Source: Polytrichum commune (Eukaryota; Streptophyta; Polytrichopsida; Polytrichales; Polytrichaceae). From it: a DNA stretch of 64,000 nt. The notes beneath the pieces are model-generated. The model saw only the letters and a program-made list of their open reading frames with translations, was not told the DNA's origin and did not search any database. A program made the position numbers and the translations under genes. Below are positions 18,202-57,600 of the stretch, in pieces (positions within the stretch are counted from its first letter, which is position 1; the number at the start of each line of letters is the position of its first letter). The DNA is taken from positions 47,425,169 to 47,489,168 of the forward strand of contig OX485806.1 in assembly GCA_950295325.1 (NCBI GenBank), read 5' to 3'.

Positions 18202-18567
18202 CTTTTACACATTTATAAAAGTCCCCCTATAAAAAACACACAAGAAACAAAACAATACTCTAAAAATCCATTCGTATTCCAATACGCCCAACTAGTAAGC
18301 CTATCGCCCATACACTTGTCACAACACCCCCCTAACCCCATCAAACTAGGCCTAGGCCATTCATACCACAAACCAACCGCCCCAAAACCCTTACACCCAA
18401 ACTCACAACATAACACCATAATTATACATAGATACATAGCTAACATATGGGCATTACCATACTTATTCCAAGATCAACCACCACCCATCATACAATCACA
18501 TATCAAAAAACCACAATCAAGCATAAGCATACAGCACCACAATCAAAAACATCTCCTCCTACAATGT

Positions 18568-18594
18568 GGAGATATACACCCTAACCAAGGACCT
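18568..18594 (+). other. 2A-like peptide motif 2, degenerate (GDIHPNQGP)
   Basis: Residues 318-326, preceded by LLLQC as in many 2A-like motifs. Here Pro of NPGP is Gln and Glu is His, so it is probably inactive. Its context resembles motif 1, which suggests an internal duplication. Confidence 0.5.
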
Positions 18595-20827
18595 ATGCCT
18601 AATCTACTACAAAAACACCCTCCGGCTTACAAAAGACGACAACATACATATTTCCTACCTAGTACGATCAAATTTCAACCCGAATATCAACACCTTGCCA
18701 AAACATTCAAACTTTTTTTCCAAAATACACACCCCTTACACGAACAAATAACACTCTCACTCCCATACTTATACAACCACATACAAAAATACCATACCCA
18801 CCCCCCCTCACGAATCATATATGCAATAATAATATCAATTAGCCCATCTACTGTAGCATGTAACTTGTACCTACAACAACAACCAACACATAACTGGACA
18901 TCACAAATATTAGAGCAAATGACCAAACTATCTAACCCGCCAGAACGACACATAGACACCCCACACCCATATACGCAATATTGTAACATATATAATGATA
19001 CAATCAACCCCGCCAACACAATACACAAAAAATTATACGATTACATCCACTTACATCCCGACTCACTTAGCATACAAAATCTACAAGAAGCATTCCCATA
19101 CTTACCAAAGCAACTTATTACGAAAGCCTTAAGATACAATGAACCCATAAACGAATATACACACCCTAATCCACCCATACCCACCCCACCATCACCATCC
19201 GAACCAATCCCACTAACAAGCCTAGAAACATATGCCATAACATGGAATGTTTCTTCACTTAACACCGCTATGCCATGTTTACAAGACTTAATTACAAAAG
19301 AACCCCCGTCGATCATCACCCTACAAAAAACCAAGCTATCCGCCACAAAATCCACAAAACACATACAAAGGTTATTTCCCCAATATAAACTTTTCTTTAA
19401 TAATACACATAACATCACGATAATCACACGACAAAGAATGACCTATAGAGGTTTTAGAGGAGGTTTCCTATTCCTTATACACATCAAACATGCATTCTCC
19501 GGTAACATCTCCAAAATACCCACCCCCGCAGCCATATCCCCTTTTCTCCAAATAACACGCATAGCCAACCAACCCCTACAACCTTGGCTCTTACTTAACC
19601 TATATATGCCCTCACATGAGGACGACCTACCTCTCATCCCCACCATCCAAAATACCATTACGGACCAAATCAACACACACCCGAACCACATATATATCTT
19701 ATGCGGAAACTTTAATAAGGACATCGCCCTAATAGGACGACAAAACGACCAACAAATTACACCGCCACAAACAGAGGACTACCTATGGAGATCCTTCATA
19801 CTCGACCTCGGACTGACATATATTCCAACATATACAACATTCTCTAGACAAGGGGGATACAACTACACACAAAACAGCTTAATTGACGGTTTTTTCATAA
19901 AAACCCCTGATAACAACCAATACTCCGTTACTACAAACCAACATACTCAGCTAAATTCCGATCACATGCCCATCCAACTAAAAATTCCCCCTAACACACT
20001 CATCGCTAGAACACCAATCATAACATCCGAACCACCACCAAGAATTCTCAACCCTATCCCAAAAGAGAAAATCGAAGACTTCCACACCAAATTCTTTGAA
20101 ACTAACTCAACTCAAATTGATGAGCTCATACTATTATTAAAACATAACCAACTAACAAATGAACAATGGCAATTAGCATGTGATTCACTAAACACCCTCA
20201 CCGACAACATCACCAACATCGTCTTAGAAACATGCAGTGCCCCACCCATCCCCACATTACCAAACCGAATTGCCAACCAAGGAGGCTATCTCCCAAAGAA
20301 GACACAAAAAAACTGGAAACTACACTTATCCACCTATCACCTCATCCAGAAGGCAATCTACACCATAAAAAACAACCCAAACTGGCGCACCCACCCCATT
20401 ATTACCCAAGAAATATACAATCATACTCACGTCATCATACCCCCACCACCAAACCCCTCTCTCCCACACAACACATGGGTGGATGCCCTAGCTAAAATTG
20501 CAAAAGAAGCTAAGAACAAAGCCCGCAAAATCACCACCGACTACACCACCAAACAAATTAAAAAAGCCATATCAAAATATCAACAACTCTATGATAAAAG
20601 TCCAAAGACTATCAACAGAAAAGTTTTTAAAAATACCGACACCCCCTCACTCGACTGCCTCGTAGATAGGCACAACAACATTCTTACCAACCCAAAAGAC
20701 ATCGCACAAGAAATACATGCCCAACAATCAATCAGTAATAGACCAACTGTCCCAACCTGCTATTATCAACCAGACCACCCACAACAATACATATGCGGAG
20801 TCAGACAATACCCGTGGCATGATCTGA

Positions 20828-22483
20828 ATGGATATGCCCTGGAAAAAAAAAAGGCGAAGCATCAATTCCCTTGCATACATACCTAGATCAGTCAACCGTA
20901 GTAAGAAATGGGTCCAACTCACATACCCGCCCCCCCCACCCCTAACCCATAATACCACTATTCCACCAATCATAAATCATGACATATGCCTACCCCCCAA
21001 ATACCCACCACAATATTGTTATTATACCGATGGGTCATTTATCCCACCCAAAGCAATAACCCAAGAACATTGGAGACAAGAAAAGGCAGGATATGGAATA
21101 TACAACCCTTTTAAAAACCTAAAAATTTCAGAACGACTACCAGGACTCCAAAATATACTACGAGCGGAACTGATGGCTATCCACCACACCTTATGCCTCC
21201 TCACCACCACATACCGAAATGAACCCGCACACATTTTCACAGATTGTCTTAATGTTCTATACCTCACAAACACACAAACAAAACATCCAACCTCACACAA
21301 TAGTCACCCGGACAAGAAGATACTTGAATCAATCATTAAGATGTTACAATCCCGCACACAAACCACCACACTACATAAAGTCAAAGCCCACACGAATATT
21401 AGTGGCAACGAGCAAGCGGACAAATTAGCCAAAATGGGATGTGAATTAGAACATATAGATGCCCTAGCCATATACGAACACGCACACCCCACGCCATACT
21501 ACTTCCAAAAAGGCTGGTGGCACTCAATGCAAGAAACACCAGATAAAAGCCCCATCCGGCACCTTGGCAAATACATCACTAAATACGACAAAAAACATAA
21601 CCTAGCCCTCATAGCAACTCAAACACACCAACTACACAAATGGCTCGATAATAAAGATATTGACAAAACACTATCAAATGATTTTTGGAACAACCCGATT
21701 ATCATAGACAGACAAAAAACATGCCTAGTCAAATTTAGAACCGGACAATACATGGGACATGCTAGAAAACAACTCTTTTTCGGTAGAAATGCATACCCCT
21801 CACATACGTGCCCCATATGCAACGCACAAAAAGCAGATACATGGTTACATGTACTCCTCAAATGTAAACAACAACACATTCACGCACTAATGACCAAAAG
21901 ACATAACAAAGCTGTATGGGAAATACGCAAACTTCTAATCTCAAACAAAAAGACAAGATACTACACACTCATGAATGCATGTACATATAATGAGCTCCCC
22001 CAAGAAAACATAGTACCATCATGGTTACTTCCATGCACATGCACCACCCAAAGATGTCACTGCAACGCTAGGCTCAAACCTCACATATTATGCATAATAG
22101 GACATCCATACAAATCCCCACCACCAGAAGCACCCACACCGGAAATTACAGTTCAATTCATAGAATTTACATACTGTAATGACAGATTCTCCACCGAAAC
22201 CATAAATCAAAAAATTACAAAATATCAACCACTCATAAATAATATTATTGCAAAAGGTTGGAACGTAGCCCCACTTATTGTATTAGCATCTGGTGCTAGA
22301 GCCACAACTCACATCCCCTCAATGAACGAACTTGAAACAAAGCTTAAACTCCCTACATCACAAATTAGGAACACATTCAAACAACTTAACATAATTGCCA
22401 TACAATATGCACACTCAATATTAATCCACAAAAGACGAATAGAAAATAGACAACCCATTACAGACCTACAAAATCATAATTAA
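20828..22483 (+). pseudogene. LINE ORF2, C-terminal part: RNase H, CCHC, restriction-like nuclease
   Basis: 551 codons in a different frame from the N-terminal part. RNase H spans about residues 60-205: YYTDGSF, RAELMAI, IFTDCLN and HKVKAHTNISGNEQADKLA supply the D-E-D and His residues. A zinc motif CPICNAQKADTWLHVLLKC follows near 325-345. Near residues 440-490, VQFIEFTYCND then KITKYQPLINN and LIVLASGARATTH look like a restriction-like (PD-(D/E)XK) nuclease as found C-terminal in R2-type LINEs. The first ~25 residues are the out-of-frame junction with the deleted RT. Without RT the copy is non-autonomous. RNase H is clear; the nuclease call is by pattern. Confidence 0.75.
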
Positions 22484-28440: not shown

Positions 28441-29010
28441 GGGAATAAGTCCCAAGGCAAATCATGACCATACCGCGAATGGAATGTTGAAAGGTCATTT
28501 TGTGCTATGAAGGCAAATCATGCTTGTGTTACAAACATAATGTTGAAAGGTGGCTTTGTGGTACCAAATCAAATCATATTTGTGCTGCACACGGAATGTT
28601 AAAAGTTGGCTCAGCAAACCAAGCCAAATCTTGTTTGTCTTGTGAACGAAATGTTAGCAGTTGGTTTTGTGGCACCAATCCAAATCATATTTATGCCGCA
28701 GATGGAATGTTAGAACTTGGCTTTTATGGTACTAAGCCAAATCATGTTTATACCGCGGATAGAATGTTAGAAGTTGAACCAAATCATGTTTATACCGCGG
28801 ACTACATTTTAAGAATGTGGCATTGTATTACCAAGGCAATTCATGTGTGTGCCGCAGACAAAATGTTAGAAGGTGGCATTGTGGTACCAAGGCAATTCAT
28901 GTTTGTGCCACAGACGGATTGTCAGAAGGTGGCATTGTGATACCAAAACAAATCATGTTGTTGCCGAGGATCAAATGTTAGATGGTGGCTTTGTGACCAA
29001 GGCTAATAGC
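28440..29010 (+). repeat. Tandem ~57-60-bp units resembling CCHC zinc knuckles in gag
   Basis: About nine or ten imperfect tandem units (AATGTTAGAAGGTGGCATTG, then a gap, then GGCAATTCATGTTTGTGCCG). Translated pieces such as WFCGTNPNHIYAADGML and FYGTKPNHVYTADRML fit Cx2CGx(K)PNHxxxxC with one or more Cys lost. One to two knuckles are usual in plant Gypsy gag, so this is an unusual expansion. Most of the tract stays open from 28500 to 28940. Confidence 0.5.
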
Positions 29011-38862: not shown

Positions 38863-38872
38863 AGCTCTACAC
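38863..38872. repeat. 10-bp TSD of the giant transposon (left), AGCTCTACAC
   Basis: Repeated exactly at 55458-55467, in each case directly outside a terminal inverted repeat. Confidence 0.85.
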
Positions 38873-38910
38873 GGGAAACTCAAGTATGTGAGCGTAGAGC
38901 GGAGAGCGGA
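38873..38910 (+). repeat. Terminal inverted repeat, left, 38 bp
   Basis: GGGAAACTCAAGTATGTG followed by AGCGTAGAGCGGAGAGCGGA. The last 20 bases are identical to the complement of the right end. Confidence 0.85.
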
Positions 38911-39853
38911 AAATTTAGATTTTGTTGGGTAATTTTAGGAGAAGCAGTGCCTATTTCCGTGGAATTAGAGATAGTTTGAATTCTATATTTGGAAAGGTAC
39001 CCCCATTCCCGTGGACATAATAACCCAGAATTGTTTGAGAAACCAATGGATCCTATAGGCGTGGAAGATTGCATTTGTTATCAAACATCTTATAGTATAT
39101 GTTTTCAAATGTATCATATTAAATTAAGGCTGACGTCACCAAATTGAAATCAAAATACCATACACAAAATATTTTATTGGTTAACACAATGTAGCCAACC
39201 TCAAGACTTACAAAAATGGGTAGTTAGTTAAAATAGCTATATACTCTAGTTTAGGGCCATCTACACCCTATCTGCCGGGCATGTCCAATATGGGTAAAAT
39301 GATCCAAAGAACATGCAATAAAATTCCGTCGCACCATAACAGCCTTCCAATTCAGTCCTTAGCTTAGCCAAAGACCTCAAAGACAAATCCCCCAAGTCCA
39401 ACTTTAGAATCCTCTTGGAAATTTTTGAGGTGACGTGCCGGCTCTTTGAGAACAACATGAAGTTCAATTTAAAAAGTTTGACGAGGTTATGTTCGCGTGC
39501 CAAACAAAACTTCCAATTGCTATATAGCAATTGGAATTGGAAGACGGCCAATGTGATTAGTGTGCACAACCATAAAATAAACCATCCACACTAATAGAAA
39601 GTATGGTCCCCCTATAACTAAGATCTCACACTAAGAGCCGAGAGCTAGATTGTTTTGTGACTAGAAGTTAAGAGATCCGAACGATGAAGAAAAAATAAAG
39701 AATGCAATGCGGATTGACATTATGAATATGAAATAATGGAGAGAAAGAATGAAACTTGAGCCGGATATCAAAAATAAAACCAACACACAACTTTTATTAA
39801 AGCCGGATAACAACAACAAACGGAGTTATAATCTCCAAAACCAAAATGATAAA
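38911..39853. other. Left subterminal region and 3' flank of the methyltransferase-like gene
   Basis: Contains the subterminal CCTATTTCCGTGG at 38950 and a 26-bp perfect palindrome at 39511-39536. A minus-strand AATAAA-type signal (TTTATT on plus, about 39791) lies about 60 bp past the stop codon of the gene at 39854. The 102-codon minus-strand ORF at 39261-39569 (…SKRILKLDLGDLSLRSL…) has balanced composition but no recognised motif; it may be a further small gene. Confidence 0.45.
39511..39536. repeat. 26-bp perfect palindrome
   Basis: Arm TTCCAATTGCTAT followed without a loop by its complement ATAGCAATTGGAA. Confidence 0.85.
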
Positions 39854-42800
39854 CTAAGGGCTTGGAGAACATTCCCTATCACTCTCCTCACCCTCATTTG
39901 CTTCTAACAAGAAAAGATTTCGTGTCCCACGCGAGAAATGACGAACGCGAGGAGGAGATGGGGACTCCGCCTTCGCAAAATAATCCGCCATTGCACTAAC
40001 ATACGGGGGAAGCTCAAACGGCTTCGGAGGACTTGAAAACATGTCTCGACGAATGACTGCGACCTCCGCTGGCTCTCTAAACACCCAAGCAAAAGGATTA
40101 GAAACATGATGACACTAGAAAATGAGAATTTGAAATCAAGGCAAACATGGCAAAATATAGAAAGCAAACTTACGCACAAAGGAATCCGAATGCCCTCTTG
40201 GTCATCTTTTGAGGAGGATCAAAGATAGATGTAGACGGTGCGGTAACTGAGCGAGATATACGCGCAGGCTGGGGATCGCGCATGGGGAGTAGGAGTGAAT
40301 TGAAAATGACGGGGTCACTCTCAAGGGCCACAATATGCCGCTCAAGGGAGCGACATGCTGTAATCGAACCACCTAAAGCAACGAGAGGTAAAATGTTAGT
40401 ATGGAAATTAGTCAAGGAAAAATAATGGAAAATTCAAAGTAAAGATGAAGTTGAAAAACAAGGCGTACCTACACCACACTGCCAGTCCATAATAACATCA
40501 TTCTTGTCGGTGAGAGTAGCGAGAAGGATGGAAAAAAAAATAGGATGTTTCTCATGGGCACCTCGCCAAGGTACCCCATTACTGCGCATCGCCTGGCTGT
40601 TCTCATCGATGAAGGTATTCAACCATCCATCTCGTTGGAGGTTGTAACCATACTCTTGTATGGCCTCCTCCCGCACTCTAAGAACGGAGTTAACACGAAC
40701 AAGAACTTTGATGCTGAACTTCCGAGTCTGCAACAATGAAAATGAAATTGAATTGAAATGAAATGGAATTGAAATGATAAGCAATACGGAAGGGGAAGAG
40801 AGGGAGACTTGCTTACCACTCCAGAGGGAACAACGGGAGATTGGAGGTCCAAATCATTCATTCCAAACCAATCTTCCGCGACGTAGAAGTCATAAGTGTG
40901 TGCCCAATCGAAAATACTCCTAGAAACACTGGCACTCGCACAATGGGCAAGAACAAGGACACCATGATCATAGAGGTTAGATTTTGCAAATGCAAAAATA
41001 CACTCATAGTATGATTCATGGAGCTTGTTCTAAGCAGGAACATCGGTGGAGATGTTCGGCACCGGCAAATTCTCGGGAATGTCGGCGAAGAGCAAATCGA
41101 GGCCCTTGTGAGTTGTAGTTGAGGTGTTCACACGGGAACGACTTGCCCCAACCTGCAATTGAAACTTCATGAGAAAACAAGAAGGAAAGAAATAAGCAAA
41201 GCAAAGGAAAAAAAATTGAGAATTGACGAAGGCAAGTATACAAACCTTGGCAATGAATTCTTGAATGCGGGTATATGCGGGGAGGGGACCTCCGGCAACC
41301 TCGGAATCCAACATTAGTTGAACCATGTCCACATTTTCGATGAGAGAAAGCGTGTTAGGGGCATCCGAAGAGGTGGCACTGGTATCCAAAAGAGCGGCCT
41401 TCCCTTTCTCCTTGGTGCCTTAGAAGGAGGAGGGGGAAGCTCAACGATGTCAGGCTCCTCCAAGGTAACAATGTTATCATCCGGAGCACTACCCACAAGG
41501 CTAGCAAACAAAGCCTTCTCTTCCCCGGGGACAAATCCTGCAGCACAATTCAAGTACCATCCACCACCTTGCAAGTGCAATTCGGAGAACTTGTTTGTTT
41601 GCGCGGTCGTGTACACGCAGAGGCTAGAAAAAATATTCACCCAGTCCGAGAGGTAGTCCAGCAAGGAAGATGAGGCCAATGCATTCTTCACAACCAATTC
41701 TCTCATGATATACCTACATGACAAAACAAGAATGTAAGAAAACCAAGAAAACGAGCAAGAAATGAAATTAAGGAGAGGTGCAAAGTGGAGGATAGATGTA
41801 TTACCGATAGGCCACACGCTTGATAGCGAGAGCCCCCTCCTCGAACTCCAAGAGATTATCACCTTTGGCAAAGGCGATGTCAGGCTTATCGCCGAGGTAA
41901 GGCTTGAAGGCCTTGTCCCAAAGGACAATCCGCCAATGATCAACGTACTCACGAGGGCGCAAGATAGTTTCTGATGCATCCCAATCAATGTCGACGGAGA
42001 GGCTCTCCTCTAAGGTCTCAATTTCAACCGCGACTTCCTTCTCCAACTGCAGAGAGGGCGATGATTAGATATGAGATAAATGGAATAGAGGAAAATGAAA
42101 ATGAAGAAAGCCGAGGAATGGATTTACCTGAGCCCATAAGGACGCCTTGTGTAGCCAGTCGTCCAAAGTCCTCTCCCTCATAGGCTTGTCGACGGGGAAC
42201 TTGTTATCTAACCTTTCACGAAGGGGGGCGTTCCACCAGTAAAGCCACTTAGCTTTGAACGAAGCTTCGACCGGGCATGTGACAATTTTTTGCAATTTTT
42301 CAATTGTCATGTCCGTCGAAAAGAACTCATTAAAATGGCGGTCAATCTGTGCACAAAATAAAAATGATTTGAGTTCAAAAGAGTAATAGAGTTGAAGAGT
42401 GATTTGGATGAATTGCGTTCAAGAGTGATTTGAGTTCAAAAGAGTACCTCATGAAAGAAATCCTCTCCATTGTCAAGGTGTGCAACGGATATGTACTTCT
42501 CAAAAGAACGGGCCCGAATATTTTTGATTGTCCTCTCCTGGGCCTTGGTCATAACAATCCAAATCTCAGTGGCCGACCTCTCCGCAACGGGTGTGGTCTC
42601 ACGGTAATGCCTCACTGCAAGGTCTGCTTGAGCCGAAATGTCTCTCTGCAAGAAATGATCTTGTGAGTTCATATAATCGGCATAGAAATTATCTATGTTA
42701 GAAGCTCTAAATGATTGAACGCACAAACCATACCTTGTAAAGAAACTTAACGAACACATCCGCGGTCAAGGTGTACCAAGTTGGACGACTCTCCTTTATC

Positions 42801-43816
42801 TTCTCGCATGCTTTGTAGTCAGATGGCGATATGAGATCCTTAAAGGTGGACAACTCTAACCTTCCAAAAGTGCGGATTCAAAGGAGCTTGGCCGGAATGT
42901 TTGCCTTGACATAATCATGCTCGGTTGACCTGAGAGAAAATATGTGAGGAACGTGAGGTGAAAAGAATGGAAAAGAATTAAAACAAAAATGAAAAATGAA
43001 TGAAAAAAATGAGTGAGCTTACCAATTAATGTCGCTCATGGCATTGAGAAATACACCGGTGTATCCTCTAGGATCAACAACAATGCAATCCACCGAGATA
43101 TGCCAACTCTTGTCATCGGCGTGGTGGTTATTGATGTGTCTCCACCAAGCGGTGAGACGATGATTGCCTTCCCAGACGAAGAACATCTTCCCGGCGAAAT
43201 GTGCACGATCCGGATCCTCCTTGAGCTTGGCGTCAAATTCTGCGGAGGCCTCTTGCCAGAGAGGGCTCCAAGAGGCCATAATGCCAGGGGGAATGGGGAG
43301 GTCCACGGGAACGTCGTTGAAAGCAGACACGTAAAGAGCTCGATCACCCTCTCGGTATCCCATTACAAATTCACATTCCAAGCGCTGCACCTCAACCTCA
43401 CTTATAGGACGGACGAGAGGGAGGGCTCTCAAGCGGCACAAAGGAATGGATAAGCGGGACTTATAGGTTGGCTTAATCCGAAGGCGTTGGATAACACCAA
43501 TGGAGTCCTCCTTTTGTGATTTCCGAAGCTCAAACTCACACACCACGGGATCCGTGTCGGCAACTGCTTGAACGGCATCTTCGTTCATTGCGAGAGCCTA
43601 ACAAAAACACAAATAGTAAAACCATGCTTAGAAAGCTAGAACTCAAAAAACTTGCTCAACAAATTACTCAACAACTATCCAACTCACCTCTACTTGTAAT
43701 GGGCCCTGCGAATTGAGACTCTCAACCTGCACAGCTTCAACTTCAACCGCGGGGGCCGCAAGAACAACATCCTCTCCATATTGGGATTGCGATTGCGCAA
43801 CCTGTGAAGAGTCCAT
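39854..43816 (-). pseudogene. ParB/Srx-like plus beta-class DNA methyltransferase-like gene, 11 exons, three lesions
   Basis: Exons (plus coordinates, transcribed right to left): 43688-43816, 43023-43597, 42734-42929, 42448-42645, 42128-42346, 41805-42046, 41246-41713, 40817-41152, 40469-40727, 40174-40372, 39854-40076. All ten introns have GT-AG ends and the phases fit, giving about 1,014 residues. Exon 2 has FVWEGNHRLTAWW, the GNHR signature of ParB/sulfiredoxin-like domains. Exon 8 has GLDLLFADIPENL, at the place of the DPPY motif, then an NLYDHGVLVLAH strand. Exons 9-10 have DWQCGVGGSITACRSLERH then VALESD, the SAM-binding D..xGxGxx pattern placed after the catalytic motif, as in beta-class enzymes. 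Lesions: TGA at 42878-42880, a one-base deletion near 41390-41420, TAG at 41030-41032. Domain calls are by motif only. Confidence 0.7.
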
Positions 43817-43988
43817 ATCCTAAGAACATGGAGAAAATGAGAATTTCACAAAGAAAAGTCAATAACTTCGTAACTATAAAGAAACAAATCCTCACAAAAA
43901 CAATACAAGGCCGAGAGCAAACTACAAATGGAAATGGCCGAATGCTAAGTCAAGTGGTCAACTCTAGCACTAACCTACCTACGAATGA
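43817..43988. promoter_or_regulatory. Upstream region of the methyltransferase-like gene
   Basis: 172 bp between the ATG of that gene and the first palindrome of the array. It should hold its promoter and leader. No TATA box is obvious. Confidence 0.35.
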
Positions 43989-44646
43989 GAGGCCTCGGAT
44001 CCGAGGCCTCTTTTCCTACCTCTTCCTTATGCACTACCCAAAAGAAAAAGGCCGAGAGAAATCTTATGTGAACATAGCAGTTTGACTATTAAAGCCCATA
44101 CATTGTCTCCAAAATGAGGCCTCGGATCCGAGGCCTCTTCACAAACCTCTTACTCATGTAGTACCCAAAACAAGAAGGCCGAGAGCAATCTTACACGAAC
44201 ATAACATTTTGATTTTTATAGCATAAAATTCACACAAACATGAGGCCTCGGATCCGAGGCCTCTTCCCAAAACACATACTTATTCACTACCCAAAACAAG
44301 AAGGCCGAGAGCATTCGAAAATGAACATAAGATTTTCATTTTTCAAGCACATACCTTGACACAAAAATGAGGCCTCGGATCCAAGGCCTCTTCACAAAAT
44401 ACCTACTTATGCACTACCCAAAACAATAGGGCCAAGCGCATTCAAAAATGAGCATAACATTTTAACTTTTCATGCACATACCTTGACACAAAAATAAGGC
44501 CTCGGATCTGAGACCTCTTCCGAATGCCCCTCCTTATGAAATACATACTACATAAAATGGCCGAAAGAATTCAAAAATGAACCTAACATTTTCTTTTTTC
44601 AAGCACACAACCTGACTAAAAAATGAGGCCTCAGATCCGAGGCCTC
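43989..44646. repeat. Palindrome array block 1: six sites, 126-129-bp period
   Basis: The 22-bp palindrome with core AGGCCTCGGATCCGAGGCCT begins at 43989, 44116, 44242, 44369 (one change), 44496 (degenerate) and 44625 (one change). Spacers are related to each other (AAGGCCGAGAG...AACATAACATTTT) but unlike those of block 3. Confidence 0.9.
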
Positions 44647-45176
44647 TTCCAAATGCCCCTCCTTGATGATTTTAAAACCTAACCAATTTACTTGTTACAT
44701 GGCTCACGGGTGTTCACCCGTGAGGTTCACATTTGATGATGTTCCAGGGGAGGTCACTCCATTGCCAAGTTGCATCACCAAAATGGGTCAAATTTTTCTC
44801 AAATTTTTCTGGAAGGTAGATATATATGATATCTATTACGGAGTAAAATATCATGACCAAATTTGATGATCATATTTTTCTAGAAAACATACCATTTCTA
44901 CCTAGAATGACGTAGAATTCAACTAAAACAATTACTAGGAAAAATGAAGATGACAAAAAATTCCAAAAAAATAACCAAAAGATATAATCAATGGTTGTGA
45001 ATATAGAGAAAAAAAATCATAATTTTTAAAAATATTTGACATGGAGACATCTCCCCGTGATGATGCTAAATCCTACCCAAGTTACCTGTTACATGGCCCA
45101 CGGGTGTTCACCCGTGGGGCACACATTTGATCATGTTAAAACCTAACTTTTCATGCACATACCTTGACACAAAAAT
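44647..45176. repeat. Array gap with hairpin elements
   Basis: AT-rich stretch without the main palindrome. It has two copies of a different hairpin: CTCACGGGTG-TT-CACCCGTGAG at 44703-44724 and CCCACGGGTG-TT-CACCCGTGGG at 45097-45118, each in a ~45-bp context (ACTTGTTACATGG...). A third copy is at 47421-47442. Confidence 0.7.
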
Positions 45177-45798
45177 GAGGCCTCGGATCCGAGGCCTCTT
45201 CCGAATGCCCCTCCTTATGAAATACATACTACAGAAAATGGCCGAGAGAATTCAAAAATGAACCTAACATTTTCATTTTTCAAGCACAAACCTTGACACA
45301 AAAAAAAAGGCCTCGGATCCGAGGCCTCTTCCCAAAGCTCCTACATATGCACTTAACAAAATACAATCCCCCCCCTGCAGCTTCAGACCTCCATATCTTC
45401 CACGTGTGGTCTCCGAATCTAACAATCAACCACTCTATCGTCATCTACGTAAAATGTAGATGCCGATGGACACCTCACTTGCTCCATTTGGGCAAAAATC
45501 AAGGAAGTTATGCCTGTTTAAACATTCGCAGTCCCGGGAGCCACTCCCAGGGGACTGCTGATCGAGGGCACTAAAAGGAGGCCTCATTTTGAAACTAGTG
45601 TACATACTCAAAAACAAGCAAAGTGCCTCATTCATACAAGCTATACGTTGAATCAAAAAATCTCAAGTGGCCTCGACTGAGAGGCCTCGGATCCGAGGGC
45701 TCACACACAAAGTAATTTACGTACTCCAAACCAACCATAGTGCCTCATCCGTACACTAGTTTTGGAACACATAAAAGAGGCCTCGGATCCGAGGCCTC
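45177..45798. repeat. Palindrome array block 2: four irregular sites with an LTR fragment
   Basis: Sites at 45177, 45307, 45681 (degenerate right arm) and 45777. Between the second and third lies a piece of LTR family L1 (45368-45571). The context of 45681 (GTGGCCTCGACTGAGAGGCC) recurs at 47319. Confidence 0.8.
45368..45571 (-). mobile_element. LTR family L1 fragment inside the array, copy 1
   Basis: About 200 bp matching the minus-strand LTR at 23525-23715 (CAGCTTCAGACC..., GAAGTTATGCCTGTTTAAAC, GCAGTCCCGGGAGCCACTCC). No LTR ends are present, so it was carried into the array as a fragment. Confidence 0.75.
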
Positions 45799-45837
45799 TT
45801 CTCCTAGCTCCTACATATGCACTTAACAAAACACATT

Positions 45838-46042
45838 TCCCCCACCCGGCAGCTTCAGACCTCCATATCTTCCACGTGTTGTCTCCGAATCTAACAATCA
45901 ACCACTCTATCGTCATCTACGTGAAATGCAGATGCCGATGGACACCTCACTTGCTCCATTTGGGCAAAATTCAAGGAAGTTATGCCTGTTTAAACATTCG
46001 CAGTCCCCGGAGCCATTCCCTGGGGACTGCTGATCGAGGGCA
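45838..46042 (-). mobile_element. LTR family L1 fragment inside the array, copy 2
   Basis: Near-identical to 45368-45571, with the same endpoints relative to the LTR. It is again followed by a palindrome. This shows that the fragment was duplicated together with array units. Confidence 0.75.
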
Positions 46043-46049
46043 CTAAAAG

Positions 46050-47223
46050 GAGGCCTCGGATCCGAGGCCTCATTCACAAACTAGTTTACATACTCAAAAC
46101 AAACCAAAGTGCCTCATCCGTACACTTGTTTTGGAACACATAAAAGAGGCCTCGGATCCGAGGCCTCATTCACAAACTAGTTTTCATACTCAAAACAAAC
46201 CAAAGTGCCTCATTTGTACACTTGTTTTGGAACACATAAAAGAGGCCTCGGATCCGAGGCCTCATTCACAAACTAGTTTACATCCTCAAAACAAACCAAA
46301 GTGCCTCATCCGTACACATGTTTTGGAACACATAAAAGAGGCCTCGGATCCGAGGCCTCATTCACAAACTAGTTTACATACTCAAAACAAACCAAAGTGT
46401 CTCATCCGTACACTTGTTTTGGAACACATAAAAGAGGCCTCGGATCCGAGGCCTCATTCACAAACTAGTTTACATCCTCAAAACAAACCAAAGTGCCTCA
46501 TCCGTACACATGTTTTGGAACACATAAAAGAGGCCTCGGATCCGAGGCCTCATTCACAAACTAGTTTACATACTCAAAACAAACCAAAGTGTCTCATCCG
46601 TACACTTGTTTTGGAACACATAAAAGAGGCCTCGGATCCGAGGCCTCATTCACAAACTAGTTTACATACTCAAAACAAACCAAAGTGCCTATTCCGTACA
46701 CTTGTTTTGGAACACATAAAAGAGGCCTCGGATCCAAGGCCTCATTCACAAACTAGTTTACATACTCAAAACAAACCAAAGTGCCTCTTCCGTACACTTG
46801 TTTTGGAACACATAAAAGAGGCCTCGGATCCGAGGCCTCATTCACAAACTAGTTTTCATACTCAAAACAAACCAAAGTGCCTCATTTGTACACTTGTTTT
46901 GGAACACATAAAAGAGGCCTCGGATCCGAGGCCTCATTCACAAACTAGTTTACATACTCAAAACAAACCAAAGTGTCTCATCCGTACACTTGTTTGGGAA
47001 CACATAAAAGAGGCCTCGGATCCGAGGCCTCATTCACAAACTAGTTTACATACTCAAAACAAACCAAAGTGCCTATTCCGTACACTTGTTTTGGAACACA
47101 TAAAAGAGGCCTCGGATCCAAGGCCTCATTCACAAACTAGTTTACATACTCAAAACAAACCAAAGTGCCTATTCCGTACACTTGTTTTGGAACACATAAA
47201 AGAGGCCTCGGATCCGAGGCCTC
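46050..47223. repeat. Palindrome array block 3: 13 sites at an exact 96-bp period
   Basis: Palindromes begin at 46050, 46146, 46242 and every 96 bp to 47202. Units are highly similar (ATTCACAAACTAGTTTACAT..., CTTGTTTTGGAACACATAAA). Two palindromes (46722, 47106) have one change (CCAAGG for CCGAGG). Variant units alternate (ACATCCTC/ACATACTC; ATTTGTAC/ATCCGTAC), which points to amplification of two- to six-unit blocks. Because 96 is divisible by three, an ORF of 456 codons with a 32-residue repeat runs through it. Confidence 0.95.
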
Positions 47224-47318
47224 ATTCACAAACTAGTTCACATCCTCAAAAACAAGCAAAGTGCCTCATTCATACAAGTTATACTTTGAATCAAAAAACC
47301 TCAAGTGGCCTCGACCGA

Positions 47319-47340
47319 GAGGCCTCGGATCCGAGGCCTC
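47319..47340. repeat. Single palindrome between blocks 3 and 4
   Basis: Exact 22-bp site, within a segment related to 45590-45760, followed by the third CCCACGGGCG hairpin at 47421-47442. Confidence 0.9.
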
Positions 47341-47564
47341 ACACACAAACTAGTTTACATACTCAGAACCAACCAAAGTGTCTCATAAAGACATGCCTAA
47401 CCAAGTTACTTGTTACATGGCCCACGGGCGTTCACCCGTGGGGCACAAGGCAGAGAGCAAGGAATCAAAAATGGAAGAAAGTTGACATTCCATTAGTTTG
47501 AGAAATCAAGAACCTCACCTCTCTCAAAACCCTACCTCTCACATACTCAAACTTACACAAATAT

Positions 47565-49121
47565 GAGGCCTCGGATCCGAGGCCTCTTTCCCTAGCTCTT
47601 TCTTATGCACTACACAAAACAAGACAAGGCCGAGAGCAATTGATGTGCACATAACATTTTGATTTTTCAAGCACAAACCTACCCACAAATAAGAGGCCTC
47701 GGATCCGAGGCCTCTTCCTATGGCTCCCACTTATGCACTACACAATAGAAGAAATGGCCGAGAGCAAGAAATCAAGAAAGCAAGAAAGTTGACATTCCAT
47801 TAGTTTGAGAAATCAAGAACCTCGCCTCTCTCAAAACCCTACCTCTCACATACTCAAACTTACACAAATAAGAGGCCTCGGATCCGAGGCCTCTTCCCCG
47901 AGCTCCTTCTTATGCACTATACAAAACGAGACAAGGCCGAGAGCAATCGATGTGGACATAACATTTTGATTTTTCAAGCACAAACCTACCCACAAATAAG
48001 AGGCCTCGGATCCGAGGCCTCTTCCTATGGCTCCCACTTATGCACTACACAATAGAAGAAATGGCCGAGAGCAAGGAATCAAGAAAGCAAGAAAGTCGAC
48101 ATTCCATTTGTTTGAGAAATCAAGAACCTCGCCTCTCTCAAAACCCTACCTTTCACATACTCAAACTTACACAAATATGAGGCCTCGGATCCGAGGCCTC
48201 TTCCCCTAGCTCGTTCTTGTGCACTACACAAAATGAGACAAGGCCGAGAGCAATTGATGTGCACATAACATTTTGATTTTTCAAGCACAAACCTACCCAC
48301 AAATAAGAGGCCTCGGATCCGAGGCCTCTTCCTATGGCTCCCACTTATGCACTACACAATAGAAGAAATGGCCGAGAGCAATGAATCAAGAAAGCAAGAA
48401 AGTTGACATTCCATTAGTTTGAGAAATCAAGAACCTCACCTCTTTCAAAACCCTACCTCTCACATATTCAAACTTACACAAATATGAGGCCTCGGATCCG
48501 AGGCCTCTTCCCCTAGCTCTTTCTTATGCACTACACAAAACAAGACAAGGCCGAGAGCAATAGATGTGCACATAACATTTTGATTTTTCAAGGACAAACC
48601 TACCCACAAATAAAAGGCCTCGGATCCGAGGCCTCTTCCTATGGCTCCCACTTATGCACTACACAATAGAAGAAACGGCCGAGAGCAAGGCATCAAGAAA
48701 GCAAGAAAGTTGACATTCCATTAGGTTGAGAAATCAAGAACCTCACCTCTTTCAAAACCCTACCTTTCACATACTCAAACTTACACAAATATGAGGCCTC
48801 GGATCCGAGGCCTCTTGCCCTAGCTCGTTCTTGTGCACTACACAAAACGAGCCAAGGCCAAGAGCAATTGATGTGCACATAACATTTTGATTTTTCAAGC
48901 ACAAACCTACCCACAAATAAGAGGCCTCGGATCCGAGGCCTCTTCCTATGGCTCCCACTTATGCACTACACAATAGAAGAAATGGCCGAGAGCAAGGAAT
49001 CAAGAAAGCAAGAAAGTCGACATTCCATTTGTTTGAGAAATCAAGAACCTCGCCTCTCTCAAAACCCTACCTTTCACATACTCAAACTTACACAAATATG
49101 AGGCCTCGGATCCGAGGCCTC
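47565..49121. repeat. Palindrome array block 4: 307-bp higher-order repeat, 11 sites
   Basis: Two palindromes per 307-bp unit (spacing 128 and 179 bp): 47565/47693, 47872/48000, 48179/48307, 48486/48614, 48793/48921, then 49100. All eleven palindromes keep the core, while spacers differ at scattered sites. The half-unit around 47640 (TGCACATAACATTTTGATTTT) is related to block 1 spacers, so block 4 probably derives from block 1-type units. Confidence 0.95.
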
Positions 49122-49311
49122 TTCCCCTAGCTCGTTCTTGTGCACTACACAAAATGAGCCAAGGCCGAGAGCAATTGATGTGCACATAACATTTTGATTC
49201 TTCAAGCACAAACATACCTTTCCTGACATGTTCCTAAACCCAAATCAGGACAAGGCCGAAAGCAAGTCAAGCTGATATTCCAAATACTATGAGAAATCAA
49301 GGTGATAGAAA

Positions 49312-50310
49312 TTAAGCAAAAACGTTGGCGAACATAGCTTGGCCGAGATCCCGACACCTTACCAGAATTTGGAGTATGCCCTCCACTGAAGCCCCTATAT
49401 TGGCGCCACTATCTTCCGAGGTCCCGTCCTCTGTCGGCGTTATTGGAGTGCTTCTCGAATCTCCGAGGTTTATTTGCGCCATTCCTCTCCCGCGGCCACG
49501 CCCTCGCCTTGATGTTTGTTGTGTTCCGCCCGCCTTGCTTCGCTGAAATCTTGAAGCAGGGGTCACAACATCCACACTTAGGGTTTCTGCGCATGGGTCT
49601 CCTCCTTCAGCTCTTTCGCGGCCTCCCAACAAATTTGATTTCAGATCTTCCTTTGCCGCTTTCCTCTTGGACGCCTTCATTTTTTCTCTAGCTTGAATCG
49701 TTGGTTGTCCCGACATCGGTTCTCGCTCTTCTAACGCCTTCTCAATTTGTTGTGCTACCTCCTTGTTGTCCTTTTCGTAGATATTTCCACTATCTCCACT
49801 CCCCCCTTCTTCCTATATTTAAGATAAAACAATGTTTATAACAATGATGACAAACCATAATATCTAAAAGAAAAGTTGTTTCACAGTTGAATATGTTCTA
49901 CCATTTTTATTATGTGCTCAAACAACTGAATATATGGAGAACCCGAAGAATACGTACGACACTTGTAGAGTTTGTCTCTTCGCGTGAGTCCTCTTGGATG
50001 ATGTCGTTTCCCAACTCCTCCACTTCTGCCATTGGTTGCGCTTTACTTCCGTCCGCCTCTTCTACAATCGGTGATAAATGAAAAGGCCGAATCCCACAGT
50101 CTAGCCTCCACGAAGGTTCCGCAGGTCCTTTATGCTTTGGCTCAAATCCTCGGGCATCCCACGGCCCTCGATTGGCGCTTTCCTTGCCTGTGACTTTTGT
50201 GTCCTCACTGTCTTTCTCTTCTTATCAGTGTAATGTGTAGACGATCGCCTCCTCTTCTTTTTCTTAGATGGTTCCGTTGTCGGAGGTTGTGAATTGCCTA
50301 TTTCCTTCAT
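49312..50310 (-). pseudogene. Small two-exon gene, basic nuclear-type protein
   Basis: Exon 1 runs from 50310 to about 49958 (donor GTACGT) and exon 2 from 49812 (after TAG) to a TAA at about 49312. The N-terminus is strongly basic (EPSKKKKRRRSSTHYTDKKRK), like a nuclear localisation signal. A one-base shift near 50150 is needed to join it to the following SWRLDCGIRPFHLSPIVEEA. Exon 2 contains KMKASKRKAAKEDLK and SRRGRGRGRGM, an RG-rich, probably nucleic-acid-binding stretch, and ends AMFANVFA. No family is recognised. It lies upstream of the array on the same strand as the methyltransferase-like gene. The shift may be a mutation or a missed intron. Confidence 0.5.
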
Positions 50311-50629
50311 GTGTTCAACCCTCCCGCAATTCAGACCTATTCGCTCTATTTCCTTTCCACAACCTCACCACATCAAACTCACACATTGGAAATAAAGTGA
50401 GCAATCGCATTCTTTTCAATATATAATTGCAATACCTCCCGATGGGAGGCGCGCTTTACTATCTGACAACCATCTTTGTAATTAGGGGTATCTTTTTTTA
50501 GGATGCCTGATAGTTTTGTCTCCTTCCTAATATTCATGCGTATTTGTTTATAACTTCATCATCATCACCATTCTCCTTCTCTATGCATCTTTGCATCTTT
50601 GTTCCTTCACGTTTGCTTTCTCTGCCTTC
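50311..50629. promoter_or_regulatory. Divergent promoter region
   Basis: About 320 bp between the starts of the minus-strand basic gene and the plus-strand transposase gene. It probably holds both promoters. An AT-rich AATATATAATTG occurs near 50438. Confidence 0.4.
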
Positions 50630-53600
50630 ATGGCTTCCACCTCAATTCTTCCTCCCGTCTCTGAGATGGCCGAACTTCGTTCACATGGCATCGGGGTCCC
50701 TATTATATTCCCCATTGGTGCACAAGGTATTGTTGTTGTCTCGGAGCTTCATCTTAGCATTAGGTTCTCTTTGAAAGCTAGTACAATATGGGTAGAGCGT
50801 GAGATCTACCATCCTGATACTGGATTGCTCGTTCATACCTTCCATGAGACCTCCAAGGTAACTGACAATGGCAATGTAGTGTGGGAGCTTGGCGCGGGAA
50901 AGTATAGGGTTTGTGGCTGGCCAGATTCTCAGATGGGAGTGTCAACAGAAATCCTTCCTCCTCTTCGATCATCCACTGTTGCCTTTAGCACACCCCCGAT
51001 AATAAGCGTCAAGACCGAGCCTGGCGTAGACAACGTTATAGACTTGTCTGATTCTTCGAGTGAAGATGTACCAGTGCATAAGGTTGCTGTCCATGATTCC
51101 CCTCATTTGTTTCCCTTTGCATCCTACGTAACGCCTTCTCCATCTAGCTCTGTCCCTTCAACTACTTCGGTCCCTACATCTAAACCTCCTCAAACTATTG
51201 TTCAATGTCTTCGTCGTCTTGGCTCTATGCCCGGTAGTAAGAACGTCCTCAAGAAAATAGATTACGATAAAATCAAAATCCAAGAAGTTAATCACCTTCC
51301 CCCTCGTTTCGATGGCACCCAGTTATTTGTCCTCCCTGCAGCAGAAGTCTCTTCATCTCAAAACCAGGGCCAAGTCGTTGGACGGCATGGACAAGCAATA
51401 TGATGGCCATGTTTGGACTAAGACTCAAACCACCAACATTACAAACGACGTTGGCCTTGCATTTCGTTCCTCTACATGTGTTGACCATCTCCAATGCCAA
51501 AACCCGACTTGTGATTACCTTCAACACGCCCATCGTACCTCTAAGGTCAATGACACAGAATTTGAAGGTTTCACTAAAGATCCTTTCCCTCTCTCTGGCA
51601 TTGTGCCATCCGGATCTACTCTTGTCTGCAGGATTTGTAAAGAGCCTCCCAAATGCATTGCACTATGCGAGGCCAAAATCTTCTACGTCCATGGGAAGGA
51701 GTCATCCCAAAGAGCCTGCATTCATCTCGGTTCTCATCAACATCCAGTGAAGGTTGGAGACTGCAGAGACAGTCGGAAGCGTATCAATGCACTTCTTGAG
51801 GAGCACATTGAACGTACGCCTCAAGCCACCCACAGCAAGATCGTCCTTGAAGCTAGCAAGGACATTGTTGGTGAGTTTCTCCTTTCTGGCGATAATGACA
51901 CACACCGTCTCTTCTCTTTAAAAGAGCTTGAACCTGTTTTTGAGAGCTGTAGAGAGTTGAATTCCCCAAACCTTCGCTCTAAGGTTACCTCTTTCAAATA
52001 TTTGCGGAGGTTTGGTGTTATGGATGGCATCGCGAAGCTCCGAGGCGTTAGCAATTGGGCCTACGTCCAACGGAACCAATTCCCATGACAAGGTGACGAT
52101 ACAGACAAGGTGTTCGTCTTTAAGATGTCGGAGGTTGGTCCTGGAAGTGGAGTGGATTTGGTTCGTCGGATGCAACCGGGTGGGGACCTGGAGAACGCGT
52201 GGATGATGTCCGATCACGTGAAGCGGGTCAAAGGGTGGACCACCATGGCCGCTCATGTGTACGATGGGACTTATCAACGGGTCATGACCATTTCATGTTG
52301 TGATTTCCAATCGGAGGATAAGGATGCCCAAGTTCTCTTCTGGCAGAACCTCAACCACGTCATGGCCCGACACGGTATTCCACATCCAAACTTTATAGGC
52401 TTCATGGCGGACAGTGCCCAAGCCAATTGGAACGCTGTTCGCATTGTGTATGGTTCAGGGGATCCCAAAGTTCCAATGGAGGGTCGTGAGCGCACTTGTT
52501 TTTTCCATTGGAAACAATCGCTCGAAAAACATACGAAATCGTATATAAAGCATGAATTACAAGACCAACATAGACATCTTTGCCTTCAATATCGAAATGC
52601 GTCATCTATGGAAGAGGCTGAGACTAGGTACCTAGCTATCAAGGCTTGGTGGGCGTCATCGAATTGTACAAGTGAGGACGGTCTCAAGCATCTTCAGCTC
52701 TGGCTTGCTTTTTGGCACTTCCGCTACCTTCAATGGGGTGGTTTCATGGAACTGGTACATCTCCTTTATAATTCATTATTGGTTTTTCTTGGATTCGATT
52801 TCCTCTCTCTGTACATTTATATTAATACTTGATTTCTCCAATCAGGAAAAGGTTTTAACCCAAGACCAATTGGCCGAGATGCCGTCGTGCAATCTTGCGG
52901 AGTCCGTCCACAACAAGTGGCTTCAAGCCTCCGGCAACAAGGGTGGAGATCTATACGTGGCTACGGTTGACGACTACATTCGCGCCTTCTTACAAGTTGT
53001 TGCATACTACCAGTTCCTTAAAGGTGGAATTGGCGGAGATGGTCCAAGCAAAGAAGAACTAAAGCTCAGGGGTGCTCAACGTCGAGCTCAGCGTACTGGC
53101 GACCCCACAGTGTTGCAGAAGGTCTTGCTTGACATGTCCGGTGGGGAAGAATTTTGCACTCGCGATCCACACCTTGAGGGCGCCGAGGTGTTTGGATCGC
53201 AGAAGCGAAGACCAGACACTCCAATTGGTGATGATGGCGAGACCCACCGCCCCGATACCGTGAACTTCTCTCGCCCTCCCCCCGGTAAGCGTGTCACTCG
53301 ATCTCAACCAGAAACACTACCCACTATCATTGAGGAGTCTTCCCCCTCTGTACAAGAGGTTCAAGTGCCTTCACCTGCAGGACTTGGTTTCCAGCGTGTC
53401 GCTGCCGTGCAAGAAACCAAAGTAGATGTCTCTCTTTGGCATATTGCCCGCATACCCTATACGTCTGGGAAGTCTTGTTGGGCTAATCATGCGGGCACGA
53501 AGAAAAAGTGCACCGCAAGAATCGTCACTAATAATAAGAGCGTCCCTGCGCCGACCTACACCGGTATGTGGCATCATTACAAACTCCAATCTATGAAGCG

Positions 53601-54303
53601 CACGGACTTTGTCTTTTGCCCAGACGACATTGAGCGTTGCATGAAGGGCCCTCGTCGGAAATGGGTCATGCAGTTCTCTGCTGATGACCAAAAGCCTCCT
53701 ATTCCCCCAATCTGGCCCGTGAAGATTGGTACCAACCTCACCCGCTCGGAGATCTTCGCCCTTGAGAACACAGGTTTTCAACTCCCACCAAAGGAGTGCA
53801 TCACACCGACTCAACTCTTCACCAACTCTGCTCCCCCGCTGGATATGTCTGGAATCCGTGTTCGAGAAAACCCCGACATGATCCCTCCGACAAGATTGTC
53901 CAAGCTTGTTCGGCGATCCAGCAACGCACCTTCGGCAAAGCAGAGGCAGATGGTGGCCTCTGCTGAAGCTATGCATGGTACCGTTCTGAAGTTAACTATG
54001 ATCCCTCAACCGGGATTTGGTTGCATTATCACACTGCAATCCAAATCAGAACCCCAACCACCGATCTACCAAGTGACAGTCAGTTCTCTTCCAGAGTGCA
54101 ACTGCACATACTTCTTGAATATGATTTCCAAGTTCAGCCGCAAACGAAATTCTTATCTGAATTGTAAGCATTTGTATTACATTTTCATCAAGGTTTCTAA
54201 TTTGGATGCGGAAGTGGATTTGTTCATTCACGCCCCGACATTTAGCTTCAACGAAGTCAAACTCATCCTCGAAGGGGGTCTTTTGATAAAGTCTACTTCT
54301 TAG
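50630..54303 (+). pseudogene. MULE-type transposase with SWIM zinc finger
   Basis: ATG at 50630 (TTCATGGC context). Exon 1 runs to 52754, the intron is 52755-52845 (GT-AG, 91 bp), and exon 2 runs to TAG at 54301. Exon 1 begins with a ~250-residue variable domain, then Cys-rich segments (CQNPTCDYL; CRICKEPPKC...C). The DDE core follows: Asp in HVYDG (about 52262), Asp in GFMADSAQANWNAVR (52410-52412), and Glu in CNLAESVHNKW (52900-52902). Near the end CNC...CKH (54095-54175) is a SWIM finger, usual in MULE transposases. Lesions: a frame shift near 51375 and an in-frame TGA at 52086-52088. It would cut and paste the element via its terminal repeats. Confidence 0.8.
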
Positions 54304-54505
54304 GATTTATCTCAGCCTAGCAGTACTTTGGGCTATGATATACGTATCCATTTCTGGACCTCTTGCAAAGCAATAATTGATTGATATAATAAAGGTATAA
54401 TCTCAATGATTATTTTTATTTGCTTCAAAATTTTGTATTACAATACTTCCTATGTCTATCAACTCTATTTCCGTTTTGCATACTTCTTAGATAATTGCGA
54501 GGGAG
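54304..54505. other. Transposase 3' flank
   Basis: AT-rich, convergent with the next minus-strand ORF. It contains AATAAA-like sequence (ATAATAAAGG near 54386), a possible polyadenylation signal. Confidence 0.4.
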
Positions 54506-54515
54506 GTGGATCCGG

Positions 54516-54973
54516 TCAAAGCAAATCCATATAAGAAACTGTCTTATCTCTCTTTCGATCCTTCAGCGGAAGATGATGCGGCGTCATTCCTCTCATCCGT
54601 TCGCGAAATGAAAAAGACTTCAAAGATTCCCCTTCCACCTTCACCTCCTCCTCCGTTTCGTTCGATTTGTCTTCATCCAAATCAGCATCCTTCTCCGGCA
54701 CATCTTCCTGCCTTTTTTTTTTTTTCTCATATTTTTTTGCTCCTCCCGCACCCTCCACCTCCATGCTTGTGTAGACTGCGAAAATGGAGTCAGCTCGTAG
54801 TCATCACTACTTCGATTTCCAGCAGCAAACTCAAATTCCGGCGATGGATTAACCGGAATATGAGGATCTGCTAGACTTCTAATTTCCTTATCCCATCCTA
54901 ATCCAGCAAACATGTCTCTCTCATCTCCCATTGTGTGCAACTGTATATATAATGATGTTGGGTATGAGTCCAA
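54516..54973 (-). pseudogene. Charged-protein gene, fragmentary
   Basis: Two overlapping frames read right to left. The first begins MDSYPTSLYIQLHTMGDERD and continues to DDYELTPFSQST. The second has a Lys-rich then Glu-rich run (GAKKYEKKKKRQEDVPEKD, SNETEEEVKVEGES) and ends KTVSYMDLL. TTCGCAG near 54783 could be a splice acceptor joining them, or a frame shift lies between. No family is recognised. Confidence 0.35.
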
Positions 54974-55419
54974 TTTATAATCTATTCGGCCACAAACGAT
55001 AATTGCTAAAGTCTAAGCTATAGAATAGACTCACATATAAGACAAAGAGAAAAGTGATGAATAAAAACCAAGCAAGTTTATTATTTTGATTCCTTTGTAT
55101 TTTGATTGACTCATTTTTCAATTATACCAATCTCAAAAAATCCATTTTCATTGATTTTTTCTTGTAGTCATCCTTGGTTTTAATAATTCAACCACCTCAC
55201 GGTTTCCAAACTTAATGAGACCATTTCAAATTCAAGGTTTTATTTTATTTTATGACCTATACATCCCACGGAAATAGGTCCAATTTTTTACTATTATTGT
55301 CAGATTCTGGTATATTCTTGGTATATTCTTGGTATATTCTTGGGTATTTTGAAATATCCGAATTTTAGTCTGACAAGTTTACTATTTTTATTTCCTCTAC
55401 GCTCTCCGCTCTCCAAATC
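54974..55419. other. Right subterminal region of the giant transposon
   Basis: AT-rich. Holds the inverted CCTATTTCCGTGG copy (55266-55278), three tandem TTGGTATATTC units near 55318-55345, and a second inner copy of the TIR core motif (CTCTACGCTCTCCGCTCTCC, 55395-55414). The repeated TIR motif could act as extra transposase binding sites. Confidence 0.5.
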
Positions 55420-55457
55420 TCCGCTCTCCGCTCTACGCTGACATACAAGTGTCGTCC
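55420..55457 (-). repeat. Terminal inverted repeat, right, 38 bp
   Basis: Read inward on the minus strand: GGACGACACTTGTATGTC then AGCGTAGAGCGGAGAGCGGA. Same length and same inner 20 bases as the left end. Confidence 0.85.
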
Positions 55458-55467
55458 AGCTCTACAC
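55458..55467. repeat. 10-bp TSD of the giant transposon (right), AGCTCTACAC
   Basis: Partner of 38863-38872. Confidence 0.85.
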
Positions 55468-56559: not shown

Positions 56560-57600
56560 TTGATACATATAGATTCATGTAGAGCTAACTACCTCCACTT
56601 GGTTCTAAAGTTGGTTGTATTGTATAAACCTAGAAAGTCTTCCAAATTAAGATGAACCAAATTATCTAGTCTTTTTGTTGATCACTTATTATCTTGCTTT
56701 TGTTTTTTGTTCATGGTTTTTTCCATCGATTGATGGTGATTTGTTCTTTTTATCACAACCTCTTAGTCATCTTTTAAAATTTTGTCTACCTTAGGTTTTT
56801 TTTAGTTGATGCGAAGGCAATCAATTATTAGCAATGAAATTTCTTAATGATAACCGCCGATCACTTGTGAGGATCTCTGTCAAAGTGATTTTGTTCTTCC
56901 TTGATAAATCTTCAAGTAGTCCTTCTTTAGCCTTAAGTATTAGTCTATTGGCCTTTCTTCCAAGTAATGATATTTTTCATGTCCCGTTGTTGTCCCTTAT
57001 TTTCTTCTTTGGAGTTGTTTTGTAGTGATAAAAAAATTCCTTTATTCAATTGCTAGATTATTCTCAATTTGTGTTGCAATTGTTATTTTAGCTCAAATTC
57101 TATTTCCTACCTCATTTTAACATCAAATAACCTTGTTTGTCGTTATAGATCCAACAATTCTCTAACCAACGTCATTATCGTATGGCTTTAGCTCGGCTTT
57201 AGTAGACTAAGTGTATCAAATTGTTGTAAAACCAAATAGCTCTAGTAGACTGAGTATCTTCATTGTTGTAGACCAAATAACTTTAGAAGGCTAAGTATCT
57301 ATTGTTGTGGTGAACAAGTAGCTCTAATAGATTAATTTTCTCTTTGTTGTTGTAAATCCAAGTTGTTAAGTTTCTTTTGGTTGTTGTAGAACCAAATAAC
57401 TCTGGTAGACTAATTGTTCTTGTTGTTGTGGAACCAAATAGGTCTAGTAAACTAAGTCTTTTGTTGTTGAATTACCAAATATGTCTAGTAGGCTAAGTAT
57501 CCAAGTAAGCCTTTTGAGTGGTGCATTTTGTAAGTAACCAAATAATCATTTTGAGTAGTTTTTTTATATGTAACCTAATAGCCAAGTAGTGATGAAATCA
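56560..57600 (+). repeat. Dispersed repeat family R3, copy 2
   Basis: Left part matches 10340-10460 (GTAGAGCTAACTACCTCCAC; AATTAAGATGAACCAAAT). From about 57190 a degenerate tract repeats GTAGACTAAGTAT and AACCAAATA phrases. No gene. Confidence 0.55.

Follow-up and report, generated by a model that had tools for sequence, protein, structure and literature searches.

A giant MULE-like transposon family of Polytrichum commune with a ParB-like/methyltransferase-like gene and putative cognate palindrome arrays

How transposons recognize themselves and escape silencing is largely an open question, and two described systems bear on it. Sola1-1_Ec32 of Ectocarpus is a 21.5-kb DNA transposon encoding a protein of 1,104 aa that combines a ParB-like part with an N4/N6 methyltransferase part, and its authors suggest that proteins of this type bind to the transposon that encodes them and modify it (passages on this element in PMC12477816, which cite similar proteins from green and red algal transposons: Iyer 2011; Petroll, on Bostrychia). 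In Arabidopsis, VANC of VANDAL is a sequence-specific anti-silencing protein whose target motifs are tandemly repeated in non-coding regions of the transposon and co-evolve with VANC (Hosaka et al. 2017, excerpts of PMC5735166). Our analysis of a 64,000-nucleotide stretch of Polytrichum commune DNA (the window) concerns a 16,585-bp element that shares features with both. The reading that we favor, with some reserve, is that it may well be a giant transposon resembling Mutator-like elements (MULEs) with a recognition module of its own: a ParB-like/methyltransferase-like protein and cognate parS-like palindromes.

Like Sola1-1_Ec32, to which we liken it by description, the element is a giant DNA transposon whose accessory gene lies on the strand opposite to the transposase and is of similar length (1,087 codons). 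In contrast, Sola1-1_Ec32 belongs to the Sola superfamily, and the passages describing it mention no cognate repeat array. With VANDAL the element shares a family-specific tandem motif that co-varies with an accessory protein, here across 13 loci. The motifs of VANC21 and VANC6 are 8-9 bases long and non-palindromic, the excerpts mention no ParB or methyltransferase domain for VANC, and the anti-silencing demonstrated there would here only be presumed. Bacterial ParB-parS, Noc-NBS and KorB have in common with the present system a CTPase-domain fold and palindromic sites that cluster close to the gene, whereas the moss protein has no Pfam ParB_N match and no identified helix-turn-helix or ParA, resides in a eukaryotic host and is fused to a methyltransferase-like domain. 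Among the open PMC papers listed in our literature searches, none describes a ParB-like gene of a eukaryotic transposon that is paired with matching arrays of palindromes. As far as the parts of this literature that we cite extend, the ParB-like plus methyltransferase transposon gene is already known, and the family-specific palindrome array and the MULE-like carrier are apparently new.

The element and its family

The window is part of contig C4 (59.1 Mb); the genome totals 407.8 Mb in 64 contigs. Its main features, with TSD for target-site duplication and TIR for terminal inverted repeat, are as follows:

38863-38872, no strand: left TSD copy, 10 bp, AGCTCTACAC, read directly; 18 of 20 sister copies also have a 10-bp TSD
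38873-38910, + strand: left TIR, 38 bp; this end recurs at about 40 scored places
39854-43816, - strand: ParB-like/methyltransferase-like accessory gene, about 11 exons, spliced model from a sister copy; broken in the window
40174-41152, - strand: exons of the N6/N4 DNA-methyltransferase-like domain, from sequence search with the sister copy's protein and alignment A2
43023-43597, - strand: exon 2, predicted ParB-like (CTPase-fold) domain, from an AlphaFold model and structural matches; under purifying selection
43989-49121, no strand: palindrome array, 35 sites that match GAGGCCTCGGATCCGAGGCCTC with up to 3 mismatches, 27 of them exactly, spaced in several registers, from Tandem Repeats Finder (TRF) and motif count
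50630-54303, + strand: transposase gene, with an RNase-H-like exon at 52089-52832 and a later exon; interrupted in the window copy
55420-55457, - strand: right TIR, 38 bp, followed inward by CTCTCCG-type subterminal repeats
55458-55467, no strand: right TSD copy, AGCTCTACAC, read directly

An earlier note on this DNA had described a perfect 10-bp duplication and inverted repeats of 38 bp with 20 identical inner bases, all of which we confirm; the two TIRs agree at 31 of 38 positions, including 20 consecutive inner ones. The note had also proposed searching for further copies and for an empty site, and both exist. A 201-bp left-end query gave at least 43 matches at about 40 genome places (best 40 of 259 candidates scored), and a 228-bp right-end query at least 42 matches at 40 places (best 40 of 407), all these counts being lower bounds. 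About 27 copies were paired by eye, and the 20 for which both ends were retrieved span 15.0-34.5 kb. An exact 10-bp TSD flanks 18 of these 20, one has a 9/10 match and one has none; among 380 mismatched flank pairs taken as control, none reaches 9/10. When the window flanks are joined at one TSD copy, 12 other places match at 66-74% identity. All 12 align across the junction and are thus paralogous empty sites, which means that the window copy inserted into an older repeat. Two outcomes had been named as speaking against a transposon, namely that no other locus has these ends at comparable spacing or that the cargo genes occur at an orthologous site without them; neither was observed. The existence of the family is established, as are its termini, TSDs and empty sites, and it is virtually certain that the element is a real member of a multi-copy giant TIR transposon family.

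Two copies of about 34 kb (G000:C1:13969115-14002940 and G000:C7:5142548-5177069) are twice as long as the window element; the copy on C1 holds an inverted segment of array plus flank.

The accessory gene and the palindromes

The sister-copy model of the accessory gene has 10 GT-AG introns, 1,087 codons and one internal stop. For the product of 43019-43588, an AlphaFold model (predicted local distance difference test score 82) has ParB, Noc and KorB as its best structural matches, and we are highly confident, on this predicted structure, that exon 2 encodes a ParB CTPase-like fold. Sequence profiles came out negative, and the ParB likeness is seen through fold comparison alone: Pfam ParB_N matches 0 of 38 ParB-like exon sequences at E<=1, and a PDB sequence search with this exon was also negative. 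On the whole genome the ParB_N profile PF02195 gave four matches, on C10, C12 and C23 alone, outside the seven large contigs; these are perhaps bacterial contamination. Pfam DUF6551 was considered for the exon and rejected (2 of 38 sequences reached, best E 0.19). The CTP (cytidine triphosphate)-binding motif of the ParB CTPase family is GERRxRA-like; in our model an invariant GNH, within EGNHRLTAW, sits at the strand-helix turn within residues 136-155.

The ParB-like exon is under purifying selection between families: of 15 pairs, 4 gave a finite dS, and their nonsynonymous to synonymous rate ratio (dN/dS) is 0.08-0.11. Its genome matches have 59-100% identity (best 150 of 1,280 candidates scored), most of these 150 without an internal stop. 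A scan of a viral contig collection with alignment A1 found no relative.

In the C-terminal part of the protein, a phmmer search of PDB with the sister-copy sequence found DpnA (E=0.0039, covering the S-adenosylmethionine-binding motif I) and CcrM (E=0.11); Pfam N6_N4_Mtase reached E=0.27, below the cut-off. The catalytic motif of N6/N4 methyltransferases is [DNS]PP[YFW]. It is not present in the 15 rows of alignment A2 (30 rows) that cover the site, all of which read D[IV]PEN at motif IV, not DPPY. These similarities lend moderate support to a methyltransferase-like domain in the accessory protein.

The array had been described in the earlier note as a 5-kb satellite, and TRF rows between 43989 and 49218 bear this out. 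Palindrome spacings in the window are mainly 96, ~127 and 128/179, and the palindrome columns have an information content of 1.89 bits, compared with 0.80 and 1.06 for their 30-bp flanks. Exact GAGGCCTCGGATCCGAGGCCTC occurs 1,903 times genome-wide, and a reversed control never; of the 50 sites listed, all but one are found no more than 8 kb from three ParB-like exons of 80-95% identity, the exception being an isolated site. Ten sister copies hold 26-128 sites (at most 4 mismatches) in the 20-kb stretches retrieved.

To these we added 12 loci, taken as exon plus 5' flank (6) or 1.6 kb of 5' flank (6) and picked by ParB identity (the second six also by transposase identity) before their repeats were inspected. 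Ordered by ParB identity, with classes lettered as in the comparisons below, they contain:

87%, 2 loci: the same palindrome as A, 9 and 2 sites
80%, 2 loci: GAGGCCTCGGATCCGAGGGCTC, 18 and 12 sites
72%, 1 degenerate locus: A-type palindrome, 3 sites
69%: CCCTCTCGGTTCCGAGAGGG, 11 times
68%: CCCTCTCGGAGCCGAGAGGG, 19 sites, many degenerate
66%, 2 loci: CCTCTCGGAATCGAGAGG, 15 and 7 sites
66%, third locus (L082, G000:C7:39387300-39388900): D-type half-palindrome CCTCTCGGAATC alone, 16 exact copies within a 75-bp tandem array, all on one strand
59%, 2 loci: AATCCCACGGATCCGTGGGATT, one site near the exon and a cluster about 3.2 kb further

A class-specific motif is present in all 12 new loci and in the window, and it is a perfect or near palindrome in 12 of these 13; the half-site array of L082 suggests half-site recognition. 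Between A and C, dS is 1.2, near saturation, and no array alignment exceeds 37 bp, yet 21 of 22 palindrome bases agree. A and B have identical palindromes, but their spacers are still partly alike (72% over 138 bp). A GGATCC core in the sites of A, B, C and E raised GATC as the methyltransferase target; this candidate was dropped, as the D, D2 and L084 types do not have the core.

What does the motif follow? The transposase exon has at least 150 genome matches (1,744 candidates), and a divergent transposase exon lies 5' within 40 kb of 99 of 149 ParB-like exons, where random placement gives 1.3. The two genes are decoupled in identity: ParB of 63-68% occurs with transposase of 79-95%, and ParB of 87% with 81-83%. 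The palindrome type is retained in B at a transposase divergence of 17-19% (2 loci) and changed in D at a transposase identity of 93-95% (3 loci). D-type sites on C1-C3 point the same way. Among 65 places listed, 62 have a ParB exon of at most 70% identity within 8 kb and lie on its 5' side (52) or 3' side (10), none is near an exon of at least 76%, and 3 are near none. In the sampled loci, it is the ParB-like protein, rather than the transposase, that the class-specific arrays 5' of the accessory gene track. We consider the palindromes to be quite probably cognate sites of this protein; the A-C comparison and the decoupling of the two genes carry the argument for such pairing.

Proposed self-recognition and its alternatives

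We propose a self-recognition module whose specificity would come from the ParB-like domain, with the palindromes as the parS-like sites of this domain. A ParB-like dimer would load on the palindromes, and the protein would accumulate on or spread over its own element, so that the C-terminal domain would be brought to the element's own DNA. This DNA could then be marked by modification, or a protein coat could shield it from host silencing, as VANC does for VANDAL. Anti-silencing or self-marking as the purpose of the module is proposed by analogy, at somewhat under an even chance, and is preferred because VANC works in this way through tandem-repeated, co-evolving motifs (excerpts of PMC5735166); partition and transposition control are the alternative purposes. 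More tentative again is a full eukaryotic ParB-parS system in a transposon, in which a CTP-gated clamp would load at the arrays, spread, and mark DNA through the fused methyltransferase-like domain, while gene and array would be exchanged as one module between transposases, each family with its cognate pair.

If the palindromes were instead binding sites of the transposase, as an enhancer or titration array, their location between both genes and the company that the transposase exon keeps with 99 of 149 ParB exons would follow; the constancy of type B across diverged transposases and the change to type D among closely similar ones make this improbable. A yet less likely view takes the array for an ordinary satellite generated by unequal exchange, its palindromes inherited passively and without a cognate protein. 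Arrays do grow by tandem duplication, copy length varies widely (15-34.5 kb, n=20), and the flanks in C and D2 are almost as well conserved as the palindrome. Against a passive satellite, however, the A and C palindromes have stayed all but identical while synonymous sites approached saturation and array alignments shrank to at most 37 bp, and each of the subfamilies sampled carries a distinct motif in this same position.

The ParB fold and the clustered parS-like palindromes would also suit a plasmid-like tether for partition or copy control at an extrachromosomal stage of the element, rather than anti-silencing. We think this unlikely: the protein includes a methyltransferase-like domain, and general scans of the open stretches recognized no ParA-like gene, although no ParA-specific search was made. 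Finally, MULEs capture gene fragments (cited part of PMC6431247), and the element might be an ordinary giant MULE with a captured bacterial gene as inert cargo. The selection signal on the ParB-like exon disfavors this idea, as does the absence of internal stops from most of the 150 scored matches, and we give it very little weight.

Some observations weigh against pairing of the palindromes with the ParB-like protein. The exact D-type motif is held by only 7 of the 27 ParB exons of at most 70% identity on C1-C3; the remaining 20 presumably hold variant motifs like those observed. The flank contrast is small in C (1.96 vs 1.84/1.55 bits) and D2 (1.52 vs 1.47/1.14). In each of 7 regions, palindromes with perfect arms (at least 8) are more numerous than in any of 20 Markov shuffles, but this also holds for a control stretch from outside the element (5 vs 0.35). 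Because of this control the palindrome count alone is weak, and the argument is that identical motifs recur at the same location.

If a self-recognition module of this kind exists, ParB-type site recognition extends to eukaryotic mobile DNA, the reported and unexplained ParB plus methyltransferase transposon proteins gain a target, and orthogonal DNA-labelling pairs become available. One genome offers many natural pairs of ParB-like protein and putative site at graded divergence, which makes specificity directly testable.

Transposase, damage and neighboring features

The earlier note had called the element MULE-like and read a SWIM finger in its transposase. A putative RNase-H DDE-like fold and the 10-bp TSD, within the MULE range of 8-11 bp, partly support MULE identity and are the basis on which we call the element MULE-like. 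No Pfam MULE/Mutator profile matches any of 21 catalytic-exon sequences at E<=1 in a scan of this exon, and the catalytic exon has no Pfam or PDB sequence match; five weak COP9 rows for it were taken as chance. The later exon (52879-54303) contains, read by eye, the presumed E and a CxC..CxH stretch possibly of SWIM type, and Pfam gave no match for this exon. Compared with the MULE/IS256 group, the element is alike in putative fold, TSD length and possible SWIM-type stretch, and unlike in lacking a Pfam MULE/SWIM match, in its 15-34.5 kb length and in carrying an array and a large accessory gene.

The claim of three or more extra genes is borne out only in part. One large spliced gene is well supported, and two further sets of open stretches have no convincing domain in profile scans:

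49312-50364, - strand: possible third gene
54516-55012, - strand: possible small gene at the right end

The window element is one damaged copy of its family. About 215 bp near 41403, present in 9 of 10 compared sister copies, are missing, in-frame stops break the accessory gene, and the transposase gene is interrupted, including by a TGA at 52086-52088. Sister copies with longer open frames exist, many catalytic-exon matches lying within 766-codon frames. An inverted twin about 81 kb away (G000:C4, ~47.562-47.579 Mb; L023, L024) is 99.7% identical over 10.3 kb and shares the ~215-bp loss, which suggests local duplication or a local hop.

On C4, low-identity, stop-bearing ParB-like and transposase exons seem concentrated at ~42-58 Mb, and 30 of the 81 ParB-like places below 70% identity are on this contig; the region is possibly one of low recombination or a sex chromosome. 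Elsewhere in the window, 12979-22483 (+ strand) holds long open reading frames, including ones of 634, 1086 and 551 aa, that by eye resemble a non-LTR (long terminal repeat) retrotransposon; the 634- and 1086-aa frames have no Pfam match. Short tandem arrays outside the element lie at 28482-29003 (56-57 bp units) and 57196-57501 (41-42 bp units).

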